Shown: positions 35,233 through 46,396 of the stretch, piece after piece
Numbering within the stretch: position 1 is the first letter of the stretch
Layout: each line of letters opens with the position of its first letter
Notes under the pieces: model-generated
Database searches by the model: none
What the model saw: only the letters and a program-made list of their open reading frames with translations
Told to the model about the DNA's origin: nothing
Translations under genes and position numbers: made by a program
Source: Dehalococcoidales bacterium
GTDB lineage: Bacteria > Chloroflexota > Dehalococcoidia > Dehalococcoidales > BS750m-G39
Length of the DNA: 46,396 bases
Assembly: GCA_016783245.1 (NCBI GenBank)
Contig: JADHWY010000003.1
Location: 1 to 46,396, forward strand
Direction of reading: 5' to 3'

Positions 35233-35724
35233 GTCAAGCTCAAGCCCGATTTTAGCGCATTGAGAGATTTGCTCTCTATTCACCCCAGCAGCAAAGCTCT
35301 TCTCCTTAAACCTCTTCCTCACCGACCTAGCTTCAACTCCAGCCAGCTTTTTATCCGGGCGAACCAGAGCAGCAGCAATTATTAAGCCCGTTAGCGGGTC
35401 AACACAAAACAGAGCTTTATCAAGCTTTGTCTCCAAGGGAATGCCATGGGCTGGGTTATGACATAGTATAGCATGAGCCACGGGCTCACTTGCTCCCAGC
35501 TCCCTTGACAGGTCAGCCCCCAGCCTACTATGGGTGTTCATATCTCCTTCAGTGAGCTCCATGTCTATATCATGCAGCAGCCCAGTAAGCCCCCACTCCT
35601 CCTCACCCTCATCAAGACGCCTGGCTAGAGCCCGCATAATAGCCTCAGTAGCCAACATGTGTTTGATTAGATTTTCATTCTCAATATTAGCTTTAATAGA
35701 GTCAAGTGCTTCTTCTCGGGTCAC
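35173..35724 (-). CDS. HD-domain metal-dependent phosphohydrolase
   Basis: 'HMLATEAIMRALARRLDEGEEEWGLTGLLHDIDMEL'; likely GTG start at 35724 (VTREEAL), overlapping the MFS 3' end. Confidence 0.85.
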   Translation of the reverse strand: MTREEALDSIKANIENENLIKHMLATEAIMRALARRLDEGEEEWGLTGLLHDIDMELTEGDMNTHSRLGADLSRELGASEPVAHAILCHNPAHGIPLETKLDKALFCVDPLTGLIIAAALVRPDKKLAGVEARSVRKRFKEKSFAAGVNREQISQCAKIGLELDEFIELGLEAMKEIAGELGL

Positions 35725-36955
35725 TTTCACCCCCTTTCCCAACATGCGGTTTTAACAGTGATGCCAGTATAATACCTAAAATACCACCTGCAACGCAAAC
35801 CAAGAAGGCTAACTGGTAGCTACCAGTTACATCAAATATGTGACCAGCCAAGATGGGACCAGTAGCACCCCCGATTGCACCGATAAACATAAGACTCCCC
35901 AGGATTACACCGTGGGAACTCAGCCCAAATAGCTCAGCTACTATCGGCGACATCAGTACCGGTATACCACCACCGGCAAAGCCAAGGATAGCGGCAAATA
36001 AGTAAAGCCTCCATACCTCTGTGCCTAATTGCAGCCAGAATAAAGCAACTGACATCAGAATAAAGCAGCTAATAAGAGTTAACCTATTGCCAATTCTATC
36101 ACCAGCACTACCCATTATAATCATGCCGGCCATAGTTAGCCCCCCCATAACAGCTAGAATATTGGCGGCAGTGGTTGCTGGGATTCCTAGCTCGATGGCA
36201 TGTGGGACAATATGCACCATGATAGTTTCGGCACCAAATAGAAAGCAGCACAATATGGCACCAAGCACCCAAAATTGCCTGGTATGAACTGCCTGCTGAA
36301 AGGAAAACCCTTCGGTTTCCGAACTTAAGCTATTTTCCTTCACTCCATTCTCACCGTATGGCAACTGCCCCATTTGACTTGGGTCACGCCTTAGAAATTG
36401 CGCAGCCAAAATAACTAATATCAAGGTTATGATACCTACAATAATATAGGAGGTGCGCCAGCCATAGTCAGAGATGAGACGACTAGCTACCGGGGATACA
36501 ATCATTGTGCCTAAACCCATACCTGAAGCAACGATGCCTGTCATCATCCCCCGCCTCTTGACAAACCACCTGGCTACCGTAGATACCAAGGGAGTAAAAC
36601 TACCACCCATGCCAATAGCTATTATCACCCCATAGAACAGGTACAGTTGCCAGATAGCACTAATCTGTGACATCAATAAATAGCCTAATCCCAAAAAGAA
36701 GCCGCAGGCTACCATAACTATCCTGGGACCAAACCTGTCGGTTAGTTTCCCCATAGTAATAGTAAGAAAACCATTTAAAACAATACATAACGAGAAGGCA
36801 CCTGAGGTCATCGCCCTCGTCCAGCCAAACTCAGTTAGCACTGGTTTAAAAAATATCCCAAAGGTCCTAAATGTCCCCCAGATTACTATCATAATACAGA
36901 TAGCAGCTAAAACTACGATGTAGCCATAAAAGAACCCTGGCTTTTTCGTTTTCAA
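35702..36955 (-). CDS. MFS transporter, oxalate/formate or monocarboxylate type
   Basis: 12-TM pattern; 'FGIFFKPVLTEFGWTRAMTSGAFSL', 'GKLTDRFGPR', 'VGKGGE' tail. Confidence 0.9.
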   Translation of the reverse strand: MKTKKPGFFYGYIVVLAAICIMIVIWGTFRTFGIFFKPVLTEFGWTRAMTSGAFSLCIVLNGFLTITMGKLTDRFGPRIVMVACGFFLGLGYLLMSQISAIWQLYLFYGVIIAIGMGGSFTPLVSTVARWFVKRRGMMTGIVASGMGLGTMIVSPVASRLISDYGWRTSYIIVGIITLILVILAAQFLRRDPSQMGQLPYGENGVKENSLSSETEGFSFQQAVHTRQFWVLGAILCCFLFGAETIMVHIVPHAIELGIPATTAANILAVMGGLTMAGMIIMGSAGDRIGNRLTLISCFILMSVALFWLQLGTEVWRLYLFAAILGFAGGGIPVLMSPIVAELFGLSSHGVILGSLMFIGAIGGATGPILAGHIFDVTGSYQLAFLVCVAGGILGIILASLLKPHVGKGGESDPRRST

Positions 36956-36978
36956 ATCCGAATCCCTTCTCCTAGCCC

Positions 36979-38235
36979 TTAATTTTCCCCTCGCCTACCG
37001 ATTGGTCTTAAAAGAGAGGCCAGCATAATACCTATAACACTGGTTGCAGCAAGGATAATGAAACCAAGCTGATAGCTGCTAGTTACATCAAATATGTAAC
37101 CAGCCATAACCGGACCGATAGTGCCTCCAACTGTACCGATGAAGGTAACAGTGCCAAAGATTACGCCATGTGAACTCAGCCCGAATAGCTCAGCCACTAT
37201 TGGTGAAATCAGTGTAAATAAACTCCCATGGGCGAAGCCATATAGAGCGGCAAAAGTATATAACATCCATGCCTCTTTGGCTACAAGTAGCCAAAATAAA
37301 GCTACACCTAGCATGGCAAGGGTAACAATCAGTGTCAGCTTATTCCCAACTCTATCGCTAGCACTACCCATGATAAATCTACCGGCAATACTGGCTCCCC
37401 CAATAGTAGCCAGAATATTGGCAGCAGTTGCCTCCGCAATTCCAAGGTCGACTACATGCGGGTAAATATGAGTTATAAGCGTGTGTGCGCATAAAACAAA
37501 AAGGAAGTATATTGCACTAAGTATCCAGAATTGCCTTGTATGAATTGCTTTCTTAAGAGAAAATCTGGTGGCTTCTAAATTCAGGTTTTTTCCCTCTGCC
37601 TTGTCCCCATCAGGTAACAGCCCCTTTTGACCCGGGTCACGCCTTAGAAATTGGGCAGCTAATACGCTGAATACCAAAACAACAAAACCGATAACAATAT
37701 AGGAGGTGCGCCAGTCATAGTTAGAGACAAGCCAGTTTGCCACCAAAGGCATAATCAACATGCCCATACCTGCACCAGCTTTGATAATACCGGTCATCAT
37801 TCCCCTCTTCTTAACAAACCATCTGGCTAGCGTGGACAACAGTGAGATATCAGAACCACTCATGCCTAAAGCAATTACCACCCCATAGAACAAATAAAAA
37901 TGCCAAATATCCTCGACCTGAGACATCAGCAGATAACCTAAACCTAAAAAGAGGCCACAGACTGTCATAACCAGCCGTGGCCCAAACCTATCGTTTAGTC
38001 TCCCCACAATAATACCAACCAGACCTATTAGAAGGAAACACAGGGAGCGGGGGCCTGAGGTCATTGCCCTTGTCCATCCAAACTCTGAAGACATTGGTTT
38101 GAAAAAGACGCCAAAGGTGTTGTATGTTCCCCACACTAATAGCTGGATAAGGAATGCGGCCACACCTACAATGTAGCCGTAGAAAAACCGAGGCTTCTCG
38201 CCTGCACCTAAATTCAGAACTTTCTGATTAGACAC
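36979..38235 (-). CDS. MFS transporter, paralog of 35702-36955
   Basis: Near-collinear with the neighbouring MFS protein ('FFYGYIV', 'FGVFFKPMSSEFGWTRAMTSG', 'GRLNDRFGPRLVM'). Confidence 0.9.
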   Translation of the reverse strand: MSNQKVLNLGAGEKPRFFYGYIVGVAAFLIQLLVWGTYNTFGVFFKPMSSEFGWTRAMTSGPRSLCFLLIGLVGIIVGRLNDRFGPRLVMTVCGLFLGLGYLLMSQVEDIWHFYLFYGVVIALGMSGSDISLLSTLARWFVKKRGMMTGIIKAGAGMGMLIMPLVANWLVSNYDWRTSYIVIGFVVLVFSVLAAQFLRRDPGQKGLLPDGDKAEGKNLNLEATRFSLKKAIHTRQFWILSAIYFLFVLCAHTLITHIYPHVVDLGIAEATAANILATIGGASIAGRFIMGSASDRVGNKLTLIVTLAMLGVALFWLLVAKEAWMLYTFAALYGFAHGSLFTLISPIVAELFGLSSHGVIFGTVTFIGTVGGTIGPVMAGYIFDVTSSYQLGFIILAATSVIGIMLASLLRPIGRRGEN

Positions 38236-41200: not shown

Positions 41201-41495
41201 GCACTTATACCCTTTCTATAATCAAATTTTATTGTAGCACTAGACCTAAAGCACAACAAGGGCACAAAAGCTAGCATTAGTAAAATCTTTTGTGCTAAAA
41301 TAAAAAGCTTTAAGTTAGAAGGGGGTAAATTGAAAAGTGACTGTATCAGAGATGCTAACCAGAAATAGACGAATGTATCCCGATGATACAGCGCTTATTG
41401 AACTAAAACCCATTTGACAAGGTGCCACGAAATCCCACTGGTAAGATTGAAAAACCAAAACTAAGACAAAAATACGCTCATCTAGGAGGAGTAAG

Positions 41496-44400
41496 TTGAA
41501 AGAATTAACCATCAGTTCCGACGCACCAGGGGAAAGACTCTTTATGCTCGGCAATGAGGCAATAGCCAGAGGGGTTATTGAGGCTGGGGCTCAGGTGGTG
41601 GCTGCCTACCCTGGTACCCCCTCCAGCGAAATAATGGAAACCCTAGCCGGAGTAGCCAAGAAACTTGACATGTATGTCGAGTGGTCAACCAACGAGAAGG
41701 TAGCCTTTGAAGTAGCTCTAGCCGCCTCACTCTCCGGGTTAAGAGCTATGGCGTCAATGAAGCATGTTGGGGTAAATGTAGCCCATGACCCATTAATGTC
41801 AGCTAGCTATATAGGCGTAATCGGCGGCTTGGTTCTACTCTCTGCAGATGACCCCTGGGCATGGAGCTCACAGGTGGAGCAGGATAACCGGTTTATTGCC
41901 GAGCAGGGTTATATCCCCATCCTTGAGCCCTCTCATGCCGAGGAAGCCAAGAATATGGTGGCTGACGCCTTTGCCCTCTCTGAAGAATTTGGGCATCTCT
42001 TTATGGTCAGGTCAGTAACCAGGATAGGTCATGCCCGCAGCGATGTAACCCTGGGAGAGATATCAAGGGAAAAAAGGAAGGGCTTGTTTAAGAAAGACCG
42101 CTTCCGGTGGGTGCAAACCCCGACTGGCGCCAGGAAAAACCGACCACTTATGATTAAGCGGTTTGAGGAAATAAAGGAACGGGTAAATACACTCCCCTAT
42201 AACCAGCTAAAGCTAGTTAGTGGAGCCAAGCTGGGTATAATCGCCTCGGGAGTACCCTACAGTTATGCCAGGGAGGCAATAAACTGGCTGGGGCTTGACG
42301 ACAAGGTTTCGGTGCTCAAGATTGGAACGCCCCACCCTCTTCCCGAGGAACTGGTAACCAAGCTACTAAGTTCGGTGAGCGAGGTGCTGGTGGTAGAAGA
42401 ACTAGAGCCATTTGTGGAGACTCACGTTAAAGCCTTTGCCCAGGAAGCGAGTATCACGGTCAAAATCCATGGCAAGGATTTGCTTCCGGTAATAGGCGAG
42501 CTATCTACCAGCAAGGTTACCGAGGCTATTGCCAAGTTAACCAACTCCAAACTCCCGGTTAATTTTAGGGAGATAGAAAAACTCTGGGAAGAGACAGCTC
42601 CGCTATTGCCACTACGACCACCAGCCCTGTGCGCCGGTTGCCCGCACCGAGCCTCTTTCTATGCCATTACGATAGCAGCAAGAAAAGTGGCTAGAGACTA
42701 TGGTAAAGATGTACTGCCTATCTATCCAGGTGATATTGGCTGCTATACCCTGGGCTACATCCCTCCGCTAGAAGCTGAGGATGTCACTATCTGTATGGGA
42801 GCCAGCTTTGGTTTGGCCAATGGTTTTGCCCATGCCCAAGATGCACCAGTAATAGCCCACCTGGGTGACTCAACCTTCTTCCATGCCGGCATACCACCAC
42901 TAATAAATGCTGTCTACAATAAGGCAAACATAACTATGGTAGTGCTGGATAACGGGACTACGGCTATGACTGGTTTCCAACCTGATGCCGGCTCAGGCAA
43001 AACTGCTACTGGCGATGAGGCCATACAGCTAAAACCGGAAGAGATAGCCAAAGCATGTGGCGTAAAGTTCATCAAGGTTGTAGACCCCTTTGACCTGAAA
43101 ACAACCACCGATACCATAGAAAAGGCAATAAGGTTTGATGGACCCTCACTGATAGTTTCCCGAAGGCTCTGCGCCCGGATAGCAGAAAGGGAAAAGCGAA
43201 AGCTGGGAGAGAAAGTAGTCCTTTATTATATAGACCAAGAGAAATGCGTTAAATCTAAGAACAAAATAATGCCCTGTGCTGCTACTTGCCCCGCCGGTAA
43301 TGATATACCGGGTTTCACTAATCTGGTCAAGCAGGGAAAAATCAAGGAGGGGCTAGAGTTAATCAAGCAGACTAACCCACTGCCTGCTGTCCTAGGAAGA
43401 GTTTGCTATCATCCCTGTGAGACAGAATGTAACCGTGCTCAACATGATGAGGCAATCGCCATCCATAAGATAGAAAGACTCCTGGGAGACTATGAAATTA
43501 CCCTCCCCAGCGAAGAGGAGGTAAAAGCTAAGCGAGAGGATAAGGTAGCTATTATTGGCTCTGGACCAGCCGGCCTCAGTTGCGGTTACTACTTAGCCAA
43601 GATAGGATATCCGGTGACTATCTTCGAAGCTCTATCCGTGCCCGGTGGAATGTTGGCAGTGGGCATTCCTGAATATCGGCTACCCAAGGACGTGCTGAGG
43701 ACAGAGATTAAGAGAATTGAAGACCTGGGTGTTGAAATCCGCCTTAACACCCCCGTTGGCTCCGATGACGACCTCCTGCAGCAAGGATATAAAGCAGCTT
43801 TCATCGCTGTAGGCGCTCATAAAAGCATGAAGCTGGGTGCGCCAGGGGAGGAGCAGGAAGGAGTCGTTTCAGCCTTGAGCTTTCTCCGCGAGGTTAATCT
43901 AGGTAAGCAAGTAAGTGTCGGAGAGAAGACTGTCATTATTGGTGGCGGTAACGTGGCTATAGATGCCGCCCGCGTCGCTCTCAGACAAGGGGCAAAACAG
44001 GTATCTATCATCTACCGTCGCTCCAGAGCTGAAATGCCGGCTAGCGATGAGGAAATCGAGGCTGCCGAGGAAGAGGGTGTTAATGTTACCTACCTGGCTG
44101 CTCCGACCAAGGTTTTAGGTAACGGTAAAGTTAGCGGGGTAGAATGCATTCGGATGAAGCTAGGCGAGCCAGATGCCAGTGGGCGCCGGCGCCCCATCCC
44201 AATCAAGGGCTCCGAGTTTACTGTTGATGTTGACACAGTAATATCGGCTATTGGCCAGGCACCGGAACTCCCCTTTACTGATAACCAGCTTAAAGTTTCC
44301 CCCCAGGGCACCTTGATAGCTGATGCCAGCACTCTCGCCACTGGCAAACCGGGTATCTTCGCCGGTGGCGACATGGTTACTGGCCCAGCAACAGTGGCTG

Positions 44401-44798
44401 ATGCCATTGGTGCTGGTAGAAAAGCAGCAAACTCTATTGATAGATACCTGAGGGGAGAGGCTCTTGCCATAACCGAGGAGAAAATCCCCACTATCAGCTA
44501 CGAGGAGCTCTCTTTGGCTTGTATCGAGCCAGTACCGAGGGCAAAAGCTAGCAAACTACCTGTAGCTAAGCGGCTGGAGGGGTTCGCCGAGGTTGAAAGC
44601 GGTCTCAGCCAAGAGATAGCTACTGCTGAGGCTAAGCGCTGCCTTAGCTGTGGTGTGGGCAGTGAAAAGTGTATTATGCTGCTAGGCTGTCCAGCAATAT
44701 GGAGAGACGACGGCAAAACCATGGTCGATACCTCCATGTGTGATGGTTGTGCAATTTGTGCCCAAATTTGCCCCTACAAAGCTATAGTGCAGGAGTGA
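41496..44798 (+). CDS. iorA: Indolepyruvate ferredoxin oxidoreductase alpha subunit with an inserted GltD-like FAD/NAD(P) oxidoreductase and C-terminal ferredoxin domain
   Basis: IorA core 'GNEAIARGVIEAGAQVVAAYPGTPSSEIMETL' and TPP region 'GDSTFFHAGIPPLINAVYN'; GltD-like 'GRVCYHPCETECNR...VAIIGSGPAGLSCGYYLAKIGYPVTIFEALSVPGGML...IIGGGNVAIDAARVA'; tail 'CDGCAICAQICPYKAI'. Confidence 0.95.
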   Translation: MKELTISSDAPGERLFMLGNEAIARGVIEAGAQVVAAYPGTPSSEIMETLAGVAKKLDMYVEWSTNEKVAFEVALAASLSGLRAMASMKHVGVNVAHDPLMSASYIGVIGGLVLLSADDPWAWSSQVEQDNRFIAEQGYIPILEPSHAEEAKNMVADAFALSEEFGHLFMVRSVTRIGHARSDVTLGEISREKRKGLFKKDRFRWVQTPTGARKNRPLMIKRFEEIKERVNTLPYNQLKLVSGAKLGIIASGVPYSYAREAINWLGLDDKVSVLKIGTPHPLPEELVTKLLSSVSEVLVVEELEPFVETHVKAFAQEASITVKIHGKDLLPVIGELSTSKVTEAIAKLTNSKLPVNFREIEKLWEETAPLLPLRPPALCAGCPHRASFYAITIAARKVARDYGKDVLPIYPGDIGCYTLGYIPPLEAEDVTICMGASFGLANGFAHAQDAPVIAHLGDSTFFHAGIPPLINAVYNKANITMVVLDNGTTAMTGFQPDAGSGKTATGDEAIQLKPEEIAKACGVKFIKVVDPFDLKTTTDTIEKAIRFDGPSLIVSRRLCARIAEREKRKLGEKVVLYYIDQEKCVKSKNKIMPCAATCPAGNDIPGFTNLVKQGKIKEGLELIKQTNPLPAVLGRVCYHPCETECNRAQHDEAIAIHKIERLLGDYEITLPSEEEVKAKREDKVAIIGSGPAGLSCGYYLAKIGYPVTIFEALSVPGGMLAVGIPEYRLPKDVLRTEIKRIEDLGVEIRLNTPVGSDDDLLQQGYKAAFIAVGAHKSMKLGAPGEEQEGVVSALSFLREVNLGKQVSVGEKTVIIGGGNVAIDAARVALRQGAKQVSIIYRRSRAEMPASDEEIEAAEEEGVNVTYLAAPTKVLGNGKVSGVECIRMKLGEPDASGRRRPIPIKGSEFTVDVDTVISAIGQAPELPFTDNQLKVSPQGTLIADASTLATGKPGIFAGGDMVTGPATVADAIGAGRKAANSIDRYLRGEALAITEEKIPTISYEELSLACIEPVPRAKASKLPVAKRLEGFAEVESGLSQEIATAEAKRCLSCGVGSEKCIMLLGCPAIWRDDGKTMVDTSMCDGCAICAQICPYKAIVQE

Positions 44799-44803
44799 AA
44801 GAA

Positions 44804-45409
44804 ATGATAAAAGAATTCAATGTACTAATCTCTGGAGTTGGTGGACAGGGTGTAATCTTGATGTCAGAGCTTCTGGGGAACGCAGCAGTTAAAGATGGAC
44901 TGCGGGTTAGGGGCTCTGAAGTGCTGGGGATGGCAGTTAGAGGCGGTTCGGTATTCAGCAGTATCAGAATGGGAAGCGATGTATACGGGCCACTACCTCC
45001 CCTGGGAAAGTGCGACATCATAGTTGCACTGGAGCCATCAGAAGCACTACAAAACATTACCTTTCTGTCCAAGTCTAGCGTGGTCATACTCAACACCGCT
45101 ATAGTAATTCCATTCACCGTTTCCCTAGGACAAAGTAAGTACCCTAGCCTGGAAGCAATGCTGGAAAAACTAGGTAAGGCCTCAAGCAAAATAATTAAAC
45201 TGGATGCCTCCCAACTCGCCAGAGAGGCAGGAAACCTGCTAACAACTAATATTGTGATGCTGGGAGCATTATTCGGCACCAATCAGCTTCCGATAAAAAT
45301 AGAAACGGTGAAGGAATCCATCGAGGACCGCTTCCCAGCCAAGGTAATCCCGGTTAACTTTAAAGCCTTTGACCTCGGTTATCAGGCATGCCAAGAGGCA
45401 CTTAAATAA
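44804..45409 (+). CDS. iorB: Indolepyruvate ferredoxin oxidoreductase beta subunit
   Basis: 'FNVLISGVGGQGVILMSELLGNAAVKDGLRVRGSEVLGMAVRGGSVFSSIRMG'; preferred start MIKEF at 44804, just after the iorA stop. Confidence 0.93.
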   Translation: MIKEFNVLISGVGGQGVILMSELLGNAAVKDGLRVRGSEVLGMAVRGGSVFSSIRMGSDVYGPLPPLGKCDIIVALEPSEALQNITFLSKSSVVILNTAIVIPFTVSLGQSKYPSLEAMLEKLGKASSKIIKLDASQLAREAGNLLTTNIVMLGALFGTNQLPIKIETVKESIEDRFPAKVIPVNFKAFDLGYQACQEALK

Positions 45410-45493: not shown

Positions 45494-46396
45494 CTACTGC
45501 AAAAGCTCCATAATATGCATTACCTTTACTGGCAGCTTGTCCCGTATAGTACTGTCAATCAACTGAATTTCACATCCCGGACAGCTACTAACTACAATAT
45601 CAGCCCCGGTTGACTCAATTGCTTCCACCTTCTTATCGGCAATCTTCTTGGACAGGTCATAGTAATAAATGCTAAACGTGCCTGCCATACCACAGCACCT
45701 GTCGGCGTTAGGCATCTCAACATATTCTACACCAGGTATTGACTTTATAATCTGCCGCGGCTGGTCTTTTATCCCCAGATGTCGGACAAGATGACACGGG
45801 TCGTGCCAGGTAACCTTCTTACCCTTAACCTCGGACGCAGGCTGGTAAGCTGACGACGGTAGCTTCAATACATCAACCAGAAACTCAGAAATGTCCTTTA
45901 CCCTTTCGCCGAACTTGGTATAAGCCTCTTTCCGCTCTGAGGTATCAGCCAAAAACTTCACATAGTCCTTCAACGCCGAGGTACAGGTAGCGCAGTCTGA
46001 AACGATGTAATCTACCCCCCCAAAGGCTTTTACATTAGTGTCAGCTAATCTTCTCCCTGTATCAAAATCACCAGCCCCCAGAAACACCGGTGCTCCGCAG
46101 CAGCCTTGTTCCTCGGGCACCACTACCTCTACGCCGTTCCTGGTCAGGAAATCGACTATATGCTTACCCAGTTCAGGAAAGACGAAATCAGTCATGCAGC
46201 CAGTAAAATAGCCCACCTTCATCCTGGTGGCAACACCAGCCGGGGGCTTATTTACTACCGGGACTATCTGCCGTAGAAACTTGGGGGCAATTTCAGGTAT
46301 CTGTCTCCCCTTACCCAGAGCCGACAGGAACATGGATAAATGCCTGATTGTGCCCTCGGTCTTGGGCAGGAAAATCCCCTGAAACCAGGAGGCAAA
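45494..46396 (-). CDS. (Fe-S)-binding oxidoreductase with two CCG domains (GlpC/HdrD/LutA-like), truncated by window edge
   Basis: 'GCCGAPVFLGAGDFDTGRRLADTNV' and 'RCCGMAGTFSIYYYDLSKKIADKKVEAIESTGADIVVSSCPGCEIQL'; frame stays open to the edge (ASWFQGIFLPKTEGTIRHLSMFLSALGKG). Confidence 0.88.
   Translation of the reverse strand, partial: FASWFQGIFLPKTEGTIRHLSMFLSALGKGRQIPEIAPKFLRQIVPVVNKPPAGVATRMKVGYFTGCMTDFVFPELGKHIVDFLTRNGVEVVVPEEQGCCGAPVFLGAGDFDTGRRLADTNVKAFGGVDYIVSDCATCTSALKDYVKFLADTSERKEAYTKFGERVKDISEFLVDVLKLPSSAYQPASEVKGKKVTWHDPCHLVRHLGIKDQPRQIIKSIPGVEYVEMPNADRCCGMAGTFSIYYYDLSKKIADKKVEAIESTGADIVVSSCPGCEIQLIDSTIRDKLPVKVMHIMELLQ

Follow-up and report, generated by a model that had tools for sequence, protein, structure and literature searches.

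Indolepyruvate oxidoreductase normally depends on ferredoxin, and a gene that joins its large subunit, IorA, to a flavoprotein module of the GltD type in a single reading frame raises the question of where such an enzyme would deliver its electrons. The gene in question lies in a 46,396-nucleotide stretch of DNA, here called the window (assembly GCA_016783245.1, contig JADHWY010000003.1), from a metagenome-assembled genome (MAG) of a Dehalococcoidales bacterium that is 1.03 Mb in size, comprises 71 contigs and is 78% complete, and whose nearest relatives are named Dehalococcoidia or Chloroflexota. We consider it probable, short of confident, that the gene product, as large subunit, joins IorB in a non-bifurcating, coenzyme A (CoA)-acylating 2-oxoacid:NADP+ oxidoreductase of two subunits (IorA::GltD plus IorB), probably for aryl-pyruvates. 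Its substrate, its direction, its use of nicotinamide adenine dinucleotide phosphate (NADP) over NAD and its electron path are all points that we infer from the sequence, and free ferredoxin would presumably no longer be the main acceptor of such an enzyme. A published description of an IorA-GltD fusion was not found in a literature search of open-licence papers.

The 1100-residue protein is encoded by one open reading frame, which runs from a TTG start codon at 41496 to a TGA stop at 44796-44798 with zero internal stops; the start lies six bases downstream of an AGGAGG ribosome-binding site, and the homologues share this start residue in alignment (MKxLTISSDAPG). Pfam domains follow the order POR_N, TPP_enzyme_C, Fer4_20, Pyr_redox_2 and Fer4, and two NCBIfam models are matched above their cut-offs, namely IOR_alpha (TIGR03336; 763 bits against 650.9, over residues 14-600 and a second stretch) and the GltD-like PRK12771 (NF009410; 543.8 bits against 516, over residues 579-1097). 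A chance origin of the fusion is excluded by the E-values of these matches (1e-229 and 1e-163) together with the presence of over 25 further fused genes in public genomes, full-length relatives being present in the Chloroflexota, the Thermodesulfobacteriota and a third phylum, and thus in at least three phyla. Both family cut-offs, the domain order and the single frame bear out the first-pass annotation of this DNA, which had claimed IorA and a GltD-like flavoprotein in one gene and had proposed the survey of homologues that returned these relatives. The thiamine-diphosphate motifs GDIGC, GDSTFFH and DN..T.MTG.Q are invariant or nearly so across the fused and unfused IorA rows of the alignment. 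The partner gene iorB begins five bases past the iorA stop and matches IOR_beta (TIGR03334) with 220.6 bits against a cut-off of 205.8; it adjoins the fused iorA in nearly every fused locus with enough flanking sequence.

Alignment with close relatives locates the insertion. Unfused IorA proteins of these relatives are about 640 residues long, are 76-82% identical to the window protein in the thiamine part and end in IDQDKCNIKCDACIELLGCPAI...CTGCGICAQICPYKAI; at the same place the window protein has IDQEKCVKSKNKI, followed by the module and by RCLSCGVGSEKCIMLLGCPAI...CDGCAICAQICPYKAI. The module splits the cluster-I ferredoxin motif, with C584 before it and C1059 and C1065 after it. The first-pass annotation had put the module in front of the ferredoxin tail; its fusion of module and tail stands, and the place has to be corrected to a position inside the cluster-I motif, between C584 and C1059. 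Since the tail past the module is that of an IorA (identity to unfused tails reaching 67%), the window gene and its closest fused relatives (group i: the window, L017, L207 from genome G982, and the contig-end fragment L039) represent an insertion and not a tail swap. The eight-cysteine run of a 2[4Fe-4S] ferredoxin is absent from the window IorA, in which cluster II is complete and cluster I is split and one cysteine short. In group i the cysteine missing from cluster I is the second (window residues 584-589 and 1059; 43245-43262 and 44670-44672). Judged by sequence, the fused protein is a variant of IorA and not a standard one: it scores above the family cut-off and keeps the conserved sites, and lacks an intact ferredoxin. 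In the phylum of L028, the family match of many IorA homologues (e.g., in genomes G806, G811, and G822) breaks off at position 540-560 of 595, and these proteins seem to be without any ferredoxin tail.

Most of the module (about residues 592-988) aligns to residues 50-473 of Pyrococcus furiosus NfnL (5jca), and the C-terminal end of the module, about residues 1020-1054 and ending in RCLSC, aligns to the opening helix and CxxC of NfnL (residues 13-47); the module is therefore circularly permuted. The GltD-type N-terminal Fe-S region of the first-pass annotation is accordingly present as Fer4_20, with its N-terminal side incomplete and moved to the module C-terminus. StnC shows the same permuted order, as do the C. 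saccharolyticus and T. sibiricus NfnABC complexes, and these are the module's closest matches by sequence and by fold. All ligand positions of the module are filled in the alignment (C594, C598, C637, C641, C645, E660, C1049, and C1052), so that two [4Fe-4S] ligand sets, a flavin adenine dinucleotide (FAD) site and an NAD(P) site are present in a single module. The FAD motif GSGPAG (residue 688) and the NADP motifs GGGNVA (residue 816) and YRRSRAEMPA (residue 840) are intact, and GGDMVTGPAT is present at residue 957, and the idea of a coupled enzyme thus came through the check for lost FAD or NAD(P) binding residues that the first-pass annotation had proposed. GGGNxA, YRRxxxEMPA and the FAD motifs are common to the window module, NfnL and StnC. 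The ligand column of the FAD-proximal cluster holds Glu in the window (E660) and NfnL, Lys in the fused groups ii and iii described below, and Lys in StnC (K170, which ligates this cluster according to the StnC authors); Glu is also found there in the stand-alone GltD-like proteins L043 and L071. The position of R728 is conserved, with the same Arg in NfnB and StnC. An AlphaFold2 model of the fused protein (mean predicted local distance difference test score 91.9; predicted template modelling score, pTM, 0.71) is confident within domains, and the PDB structures that it matches best are GltD-like modules, those of NfnABC, StnABC, NfnB, GltS, and DPD. In L041, L042, L044, L045, L050, and L059 the GltD-like frames end near the equivalent of window residues 985-990, with tblastn similarity running further in most of them; a separate tail gene, a frameshift and a recoded stop are candidate causes.

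The other fused genes can be sub-grouped further. Group ii comprises other Dehalococcoidia (L018, L034, and L097). Group iii belongs to the phylum of L028, in which the fusion occurs in 12 of 195 genomes, including eight of the nine genomes of the L028 class. Group iv comes from ten genomes in the phylum to which a Syntrophaceae record belongs (Thermodesulfobacteriota) and has a module-type tail in place of the IorA-type tail, with no GCPA motif. Fused genes are rare among the Dehalococcoidia: a sample of 393 genomes contained 3 with the fusion, and a second one, of 79 genomes in which IorA was matched, contained one. Most members of groups i-iii keep an intact NADP motif, L119, L120, and L121 being the exceptions. 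In group iv-a (L208-L211) the motif is degenerate, with FxR for YRR and GGND, GGTD and the like for GGGN, and the fused gene stands in an operon NuoE-NuoF-(2Fe2S/4Fe4S/GcvH-like, 434 residues)-IorA::GltD-IorB (L208:3480-11395), a candidate bifurcating 2-oxoacid complex. Two members of group i call for separate mention. The fused iorA-iorB of L207, from another phylum, has histidine kinase, sigma-54 response regulator and glycosyltransferase genes as neighbours, and is likely a recent transfer between phyla or a case of mis-binning. The MAG CSMAG_2069 contains both an unfused iorA (L019, 76% identical to the window) and the end of a fused one (L039, 97%); paralogues of one genome and a mixed bin are both candidate explanations.

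The fused 2-oxoacid oxidoreductase is best read as coupled to NAD(P)(H), given its intact FAD and NADP(H) motifs and the fact that, among modules of known structure, those closest to it are NADPH sites; the first-pass annotation had proposed such coupling, which holds in this conditional form, and also possible bifurcation, which finds no support in the window protein. StnC binds NADPH with no bifurcation at its module flavin, and GltD-like modules are reviewed as NAD(P)H electron-entry units (PMC8097209). In the proposed mechanism, thiamine-diphosphate chemistry in IorA/IorB would oxidize the 2-oxoacid, and single electrons would pass via the ferredoxin-type tail into the module, first to its two [4Fe-4S] clusters and then to FAD, which would reduce NADP+ by hydride transfer. 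With a potential of about -500 mV for the 2-oxoacid/acyl-CoA couple (pyruvate value) and -320 to -380 mV for NADP (PMC9304861), oxidation is the favoured direction and would be downhill without bifurcation. The degenerate NADP motif of the four genomes with linked NuoE/NuoF, set against the intact motif of the window without such genes, fits a module that serves as a real pyridine-nucleotide site in the window enzyme, a NuoF-type site having taken over in the other branch.

Several points weigh against a non-bifurcating, NADP-reducing enzyme. The tail has only three of the four usual cysteines of cluster I, and this cluster may therefore be modified or absent; the preference for NADP over NAD would rest on a motif; the arrangement of the domains in the model is uncertain at a pTM of 0.71; and the reverse direction is possible, as GltD-like modules usually deliver NADPH electrons outward. 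In the fullest form of this last objection, which we regard as unlikely, electrons from NADPH, taken up by the GltD module (perhaps alongside reduced ferredoxin), would drive the reductive carboxylation of aryl- or acyl-CoA to 2-oxoacids for amino-acid synthesis. The pairing of a ligase with an indolepyruvate oxidoreductase is typical of assimilation. The unfused iorA of the close relative L019 stands behind a gene for an AMP-forming acyl-CoA ligase (L019:2458-4014), of which the window keeps a scar; GltD-like modules, moreover, usually accept electrons from NADPH (PMC8097209). The ligase has, however, been deleted in the window's own lineage, where its first and last codons are joined (96% and 91% DNA identity to the intact copy), the GlcD-like oxidase encoded downstream in relatives fits oxidation of 2-hydroxyacids to 2-oxoacids, and the reductive reaction would run about 120-180 mV uphill from NADPH alone (potentials from PMC9304861). 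The chances are smaller still for an NfnB-like flavin-based bifurcation or confurcation, in which the module FAD would divide electrons between NADP and ferredoxin. The shared NfnB fold, the Glu in the proximal-cluster column and the conserved Arg would agree with it, and in Dehalococcoides a POR is proposed to act together with a bifurcating Bfu module (PMC9304861). NfnB, however, works with NfnA, and an NfnA-type partner ([2Fe-2S] plus a second FAD) was not found near the window gene in this 78% complete genome, whose NfnA-like protein stands beside its own canonical NfnB on contig 57 and whose other PF10418 protein, on contig 60, is PyrK-like. NuoE/NuoF-like genes (StnAB, HydBC) are absent from the annotated genes of the window and from beside the fused gene; E660 and R728 occur also in non-bifurcating or stand-alone proteins, and StnC shares both the fold and the Arg without bifurcating at the flavin concerned.

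It is similarly improbable that the module is an electron conduit, or supports an NADPH:ferredoxin-type side activity, with a ferredoxin bound by the tail as the physiological partner. The IorA-type tail does keep the cysteines of cluster II, and the Thermodesulfobacteriota with NuoE/NuoF keep the module despite its degenerate NADP motif, which indicates that a module can be retained without NADP binding; but the NADP motif of the window is intact and matches those of known NADPH binders, and the damaged part of the tail is cluster I. An artefact of assembly or binning, or a decayed gene, has a negligible probability. The window does come from an incomplete MAG in many contigs, yet the 3.3-kb frame is intact and has a ribosome-binding site, the GC content at third codon positions (0.51, 0.50, and 0.47 along the fused gene) makes no jump and gives no sign of a recent foreign insertion, and the full-length fused relative L017, from a different family of the same order, is 80% identical to the window protein. 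L207 (G982 contig 53) is 82% identical in the thiamine part, 80% in the module and 92% in IorB, and one group iv fusion lies on a single 4.24-Mb contig. An assembly join of two frames, which the first-pass annotation had listed as a danger to its idea, is ruled out as the source of the architecture by the full-length fused relatives in three phyla.

The NADP-linked enzyme that we favour can be set beside several known systems. It resembles IorAB in its thiamine domains, beta subunit, gene order and IorA-type tail, and differs in that its cluster I is broken by a GltD-like module of approximately 465 residues and lacks one cysteine. It shares with StnC and NfnABC (PDB 8oh5, 9bov, and 9n5u) the permuted GltD module, the C-terminal RCLxC and the FAD and NADPH motifs, whereas in those complexes the module is fused with NuoG/FdhF-like domains and supplies a bifurcating pair of the NuoEF type, and that of the window lies inside IorA with no linked pair; the proximal ligand also differs, as noted above. 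PRK12771 proteins correspond to the window protein over the stretch matched by their model, but are not part of a thiamine enzyme, and the window tail is of the IorA type. The 2-oxoglutarate:NADP+ oxidoreductase of Azoarcus evansii is a 2-oxoacid oxidoreductase that reduces pyridine nucleotide. The same is true of the phenylglyoxylate:NAD+ oxidoreductase PadEFGHI (Hirsch 1998, as cited in PMC5109826), and these Azoarcus NAD(P)-linked enzymes are likely the nearest functional analogues of the fused enzyme, although they have separate subunits and belong to another subfamily; the comparison here is by way of the PadE-type gamma subunit model, to which the window IorB scores 39.9 bits, far under the cut-off of 300. 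Por-Bfu (Schut et al., 2022; PMC9304861), proposed for Dehalococcoides, is likewise a thiamine-dependent 2-oxoacid oxidoreductase coupled to NAD(H) via an added flavoprotein, but uses POR with separate BfuABC (NuoEF-like) subunits, in contrast to the GltD insertion in IorA. By its architecture, the fused enzyme belongs to none of the Nfn, Stn and Bfu complexes.

In a tree of the IorA domains the fused genes are scattered, so that three changes are needed, or four with group iv, and a single clade of fused genes is rejected by the approximately unbiased test (p = 0.002 for groups i and ii, and 2e-111 for groups i-iii). In the module tree groups i, ii, and iii are separate and group iv splits. 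Tests of a single module origin gave p = 0.33 and 0.085 with the first sets and, with later sets, 0.18 for groups i and ii, 0.029 for all fused genes and 0.049 for group iv alone, values that are to be read in the light of groups having been named after the first tree was seen. Several recipient iorA genes are firmly indicated by these trees and several module sources weakly, a single origin of the module being at most marginally rejected; repeated capture of the module and its transfer from one iorA gene to another are both candidate routes. The scatter and the rejection of one clade on the IorA tree mean that the two parts came together, or the fusion was passed on, more than once, and this speaks for a function. 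At the window site itself, the order uvrA (opposite strand)-iorA-iorB-CCG Fe-S is shared with the unfused iorA of L020, L021, L022, and L038; the module may have been inserted into the gene there, or a fused allele may have replaced the resident gene, two candidate routes that are indistinguishable. More broadly, and as a tentative proposal that we hold to be possible but not probable, IorA::GltD fusions would form a scattered, repeatedly formed class of pyridine-nucleotide-linked arylpyruvate oxidoreductases, which would include a Thermodesulfobacteriota 'Ior-Bfu' branch (NuoE-NuoF-Fer2/GcvH-IorA::GltD-IorB) that bi- or confurcates between 2-oxoacid, NAD(H) and ferredoxin, with the window branch as the simple NADP-linked form.

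Features of the locus are collected in Table 1. Past iorAB, L020 (9805-13873) and L039 (1424-6678) encode a CCG Fe-S protein, a GlcD-like FAD oxidase, two BcrA/D-type ATPases and an HGD-D protein, a gene set that suggests aryl-CoA or 2-hydroxyacyl-CoA metabolism; the window contig ends within its CCG gene. Elsewhere in the window (35702-38235), two adjoining major facilitator superfamily transporter genes of similar sequence are apparently a tandem duplication.

Table 1. Features of the fused iorA locus, in window coordinates.
Feature	Position	Strand	Basis
Acyl-CoA ligase (AMP-forming) deletion scar; intact copy L019:2458-4014	41317..41494	+	DNA comparison
Ribosome-binding site AGGAGG	41484..41489	+	read directly
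iorA::gltD-like fusion gene, 1100 aa	41496..44798	+	ORF and family matches
POR_N, aa 26-190, IorA part	41571..42065	+	Pfam
TPP_enzyme_C, aa 413-554, with GDIGC, GDSTFFH and DN..T.MTG motifs	42732..43157	+	Pfam and alignment
Fer4_20 (aa 582-667), two [4Fe-4S] region: C594, C598, C637, C641, C645, E660	43239..43496	+	Pfam and alignment
C584, first Cys of the IorA cluster-I motif, split from the remainder by the insertion	43245..43247	+	alignment
Inserted, circularly permuted GltD/NfnB-like module, about aa 590-1055	43263..44660	+	domains, alignment, fold match
Pyr_redox_2, aa 683-974, with FAD and NADP motifs	43542..44417	+	Pfam and alignment
Permuted helix and RCLSC, about aa 1020-1054, counterpart of the NfnL N-terminus (residues 13-47)	44553..44657	+	alignment
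IorA ferredoxin tail, aa 1057-1100, EKCIMLLGCPAI...CDGCAICAQICPYKAI, resembling unfused IorA tails	44664..44795	+	alignment
iorB, 201 aa from ATG 44804	44804..45409	+	IOR_beta match
CCG-type Fe-S protein (LdhH/GlpC-like), runs off the contig	45494..46396	-	family match; neighbour of iorAB conserved in unfused relatives

Annotation pipelines would miss the fused version of this enzyme, since the IorA model alone passes its cut-off. If the NADP-linked reading is true, direct production of NADPH would alter redox-balance predictions for uncultured Dehalococcoidia and sulphate-reducer relatives, and the branches with an intact NADP motif and no NuoEF, set beside the degenerate branch with NuoEF, would offer a comparison of how anaerobes may rewire 2-oxoacid oxidation among ferredoxin, NADP, and NAD.

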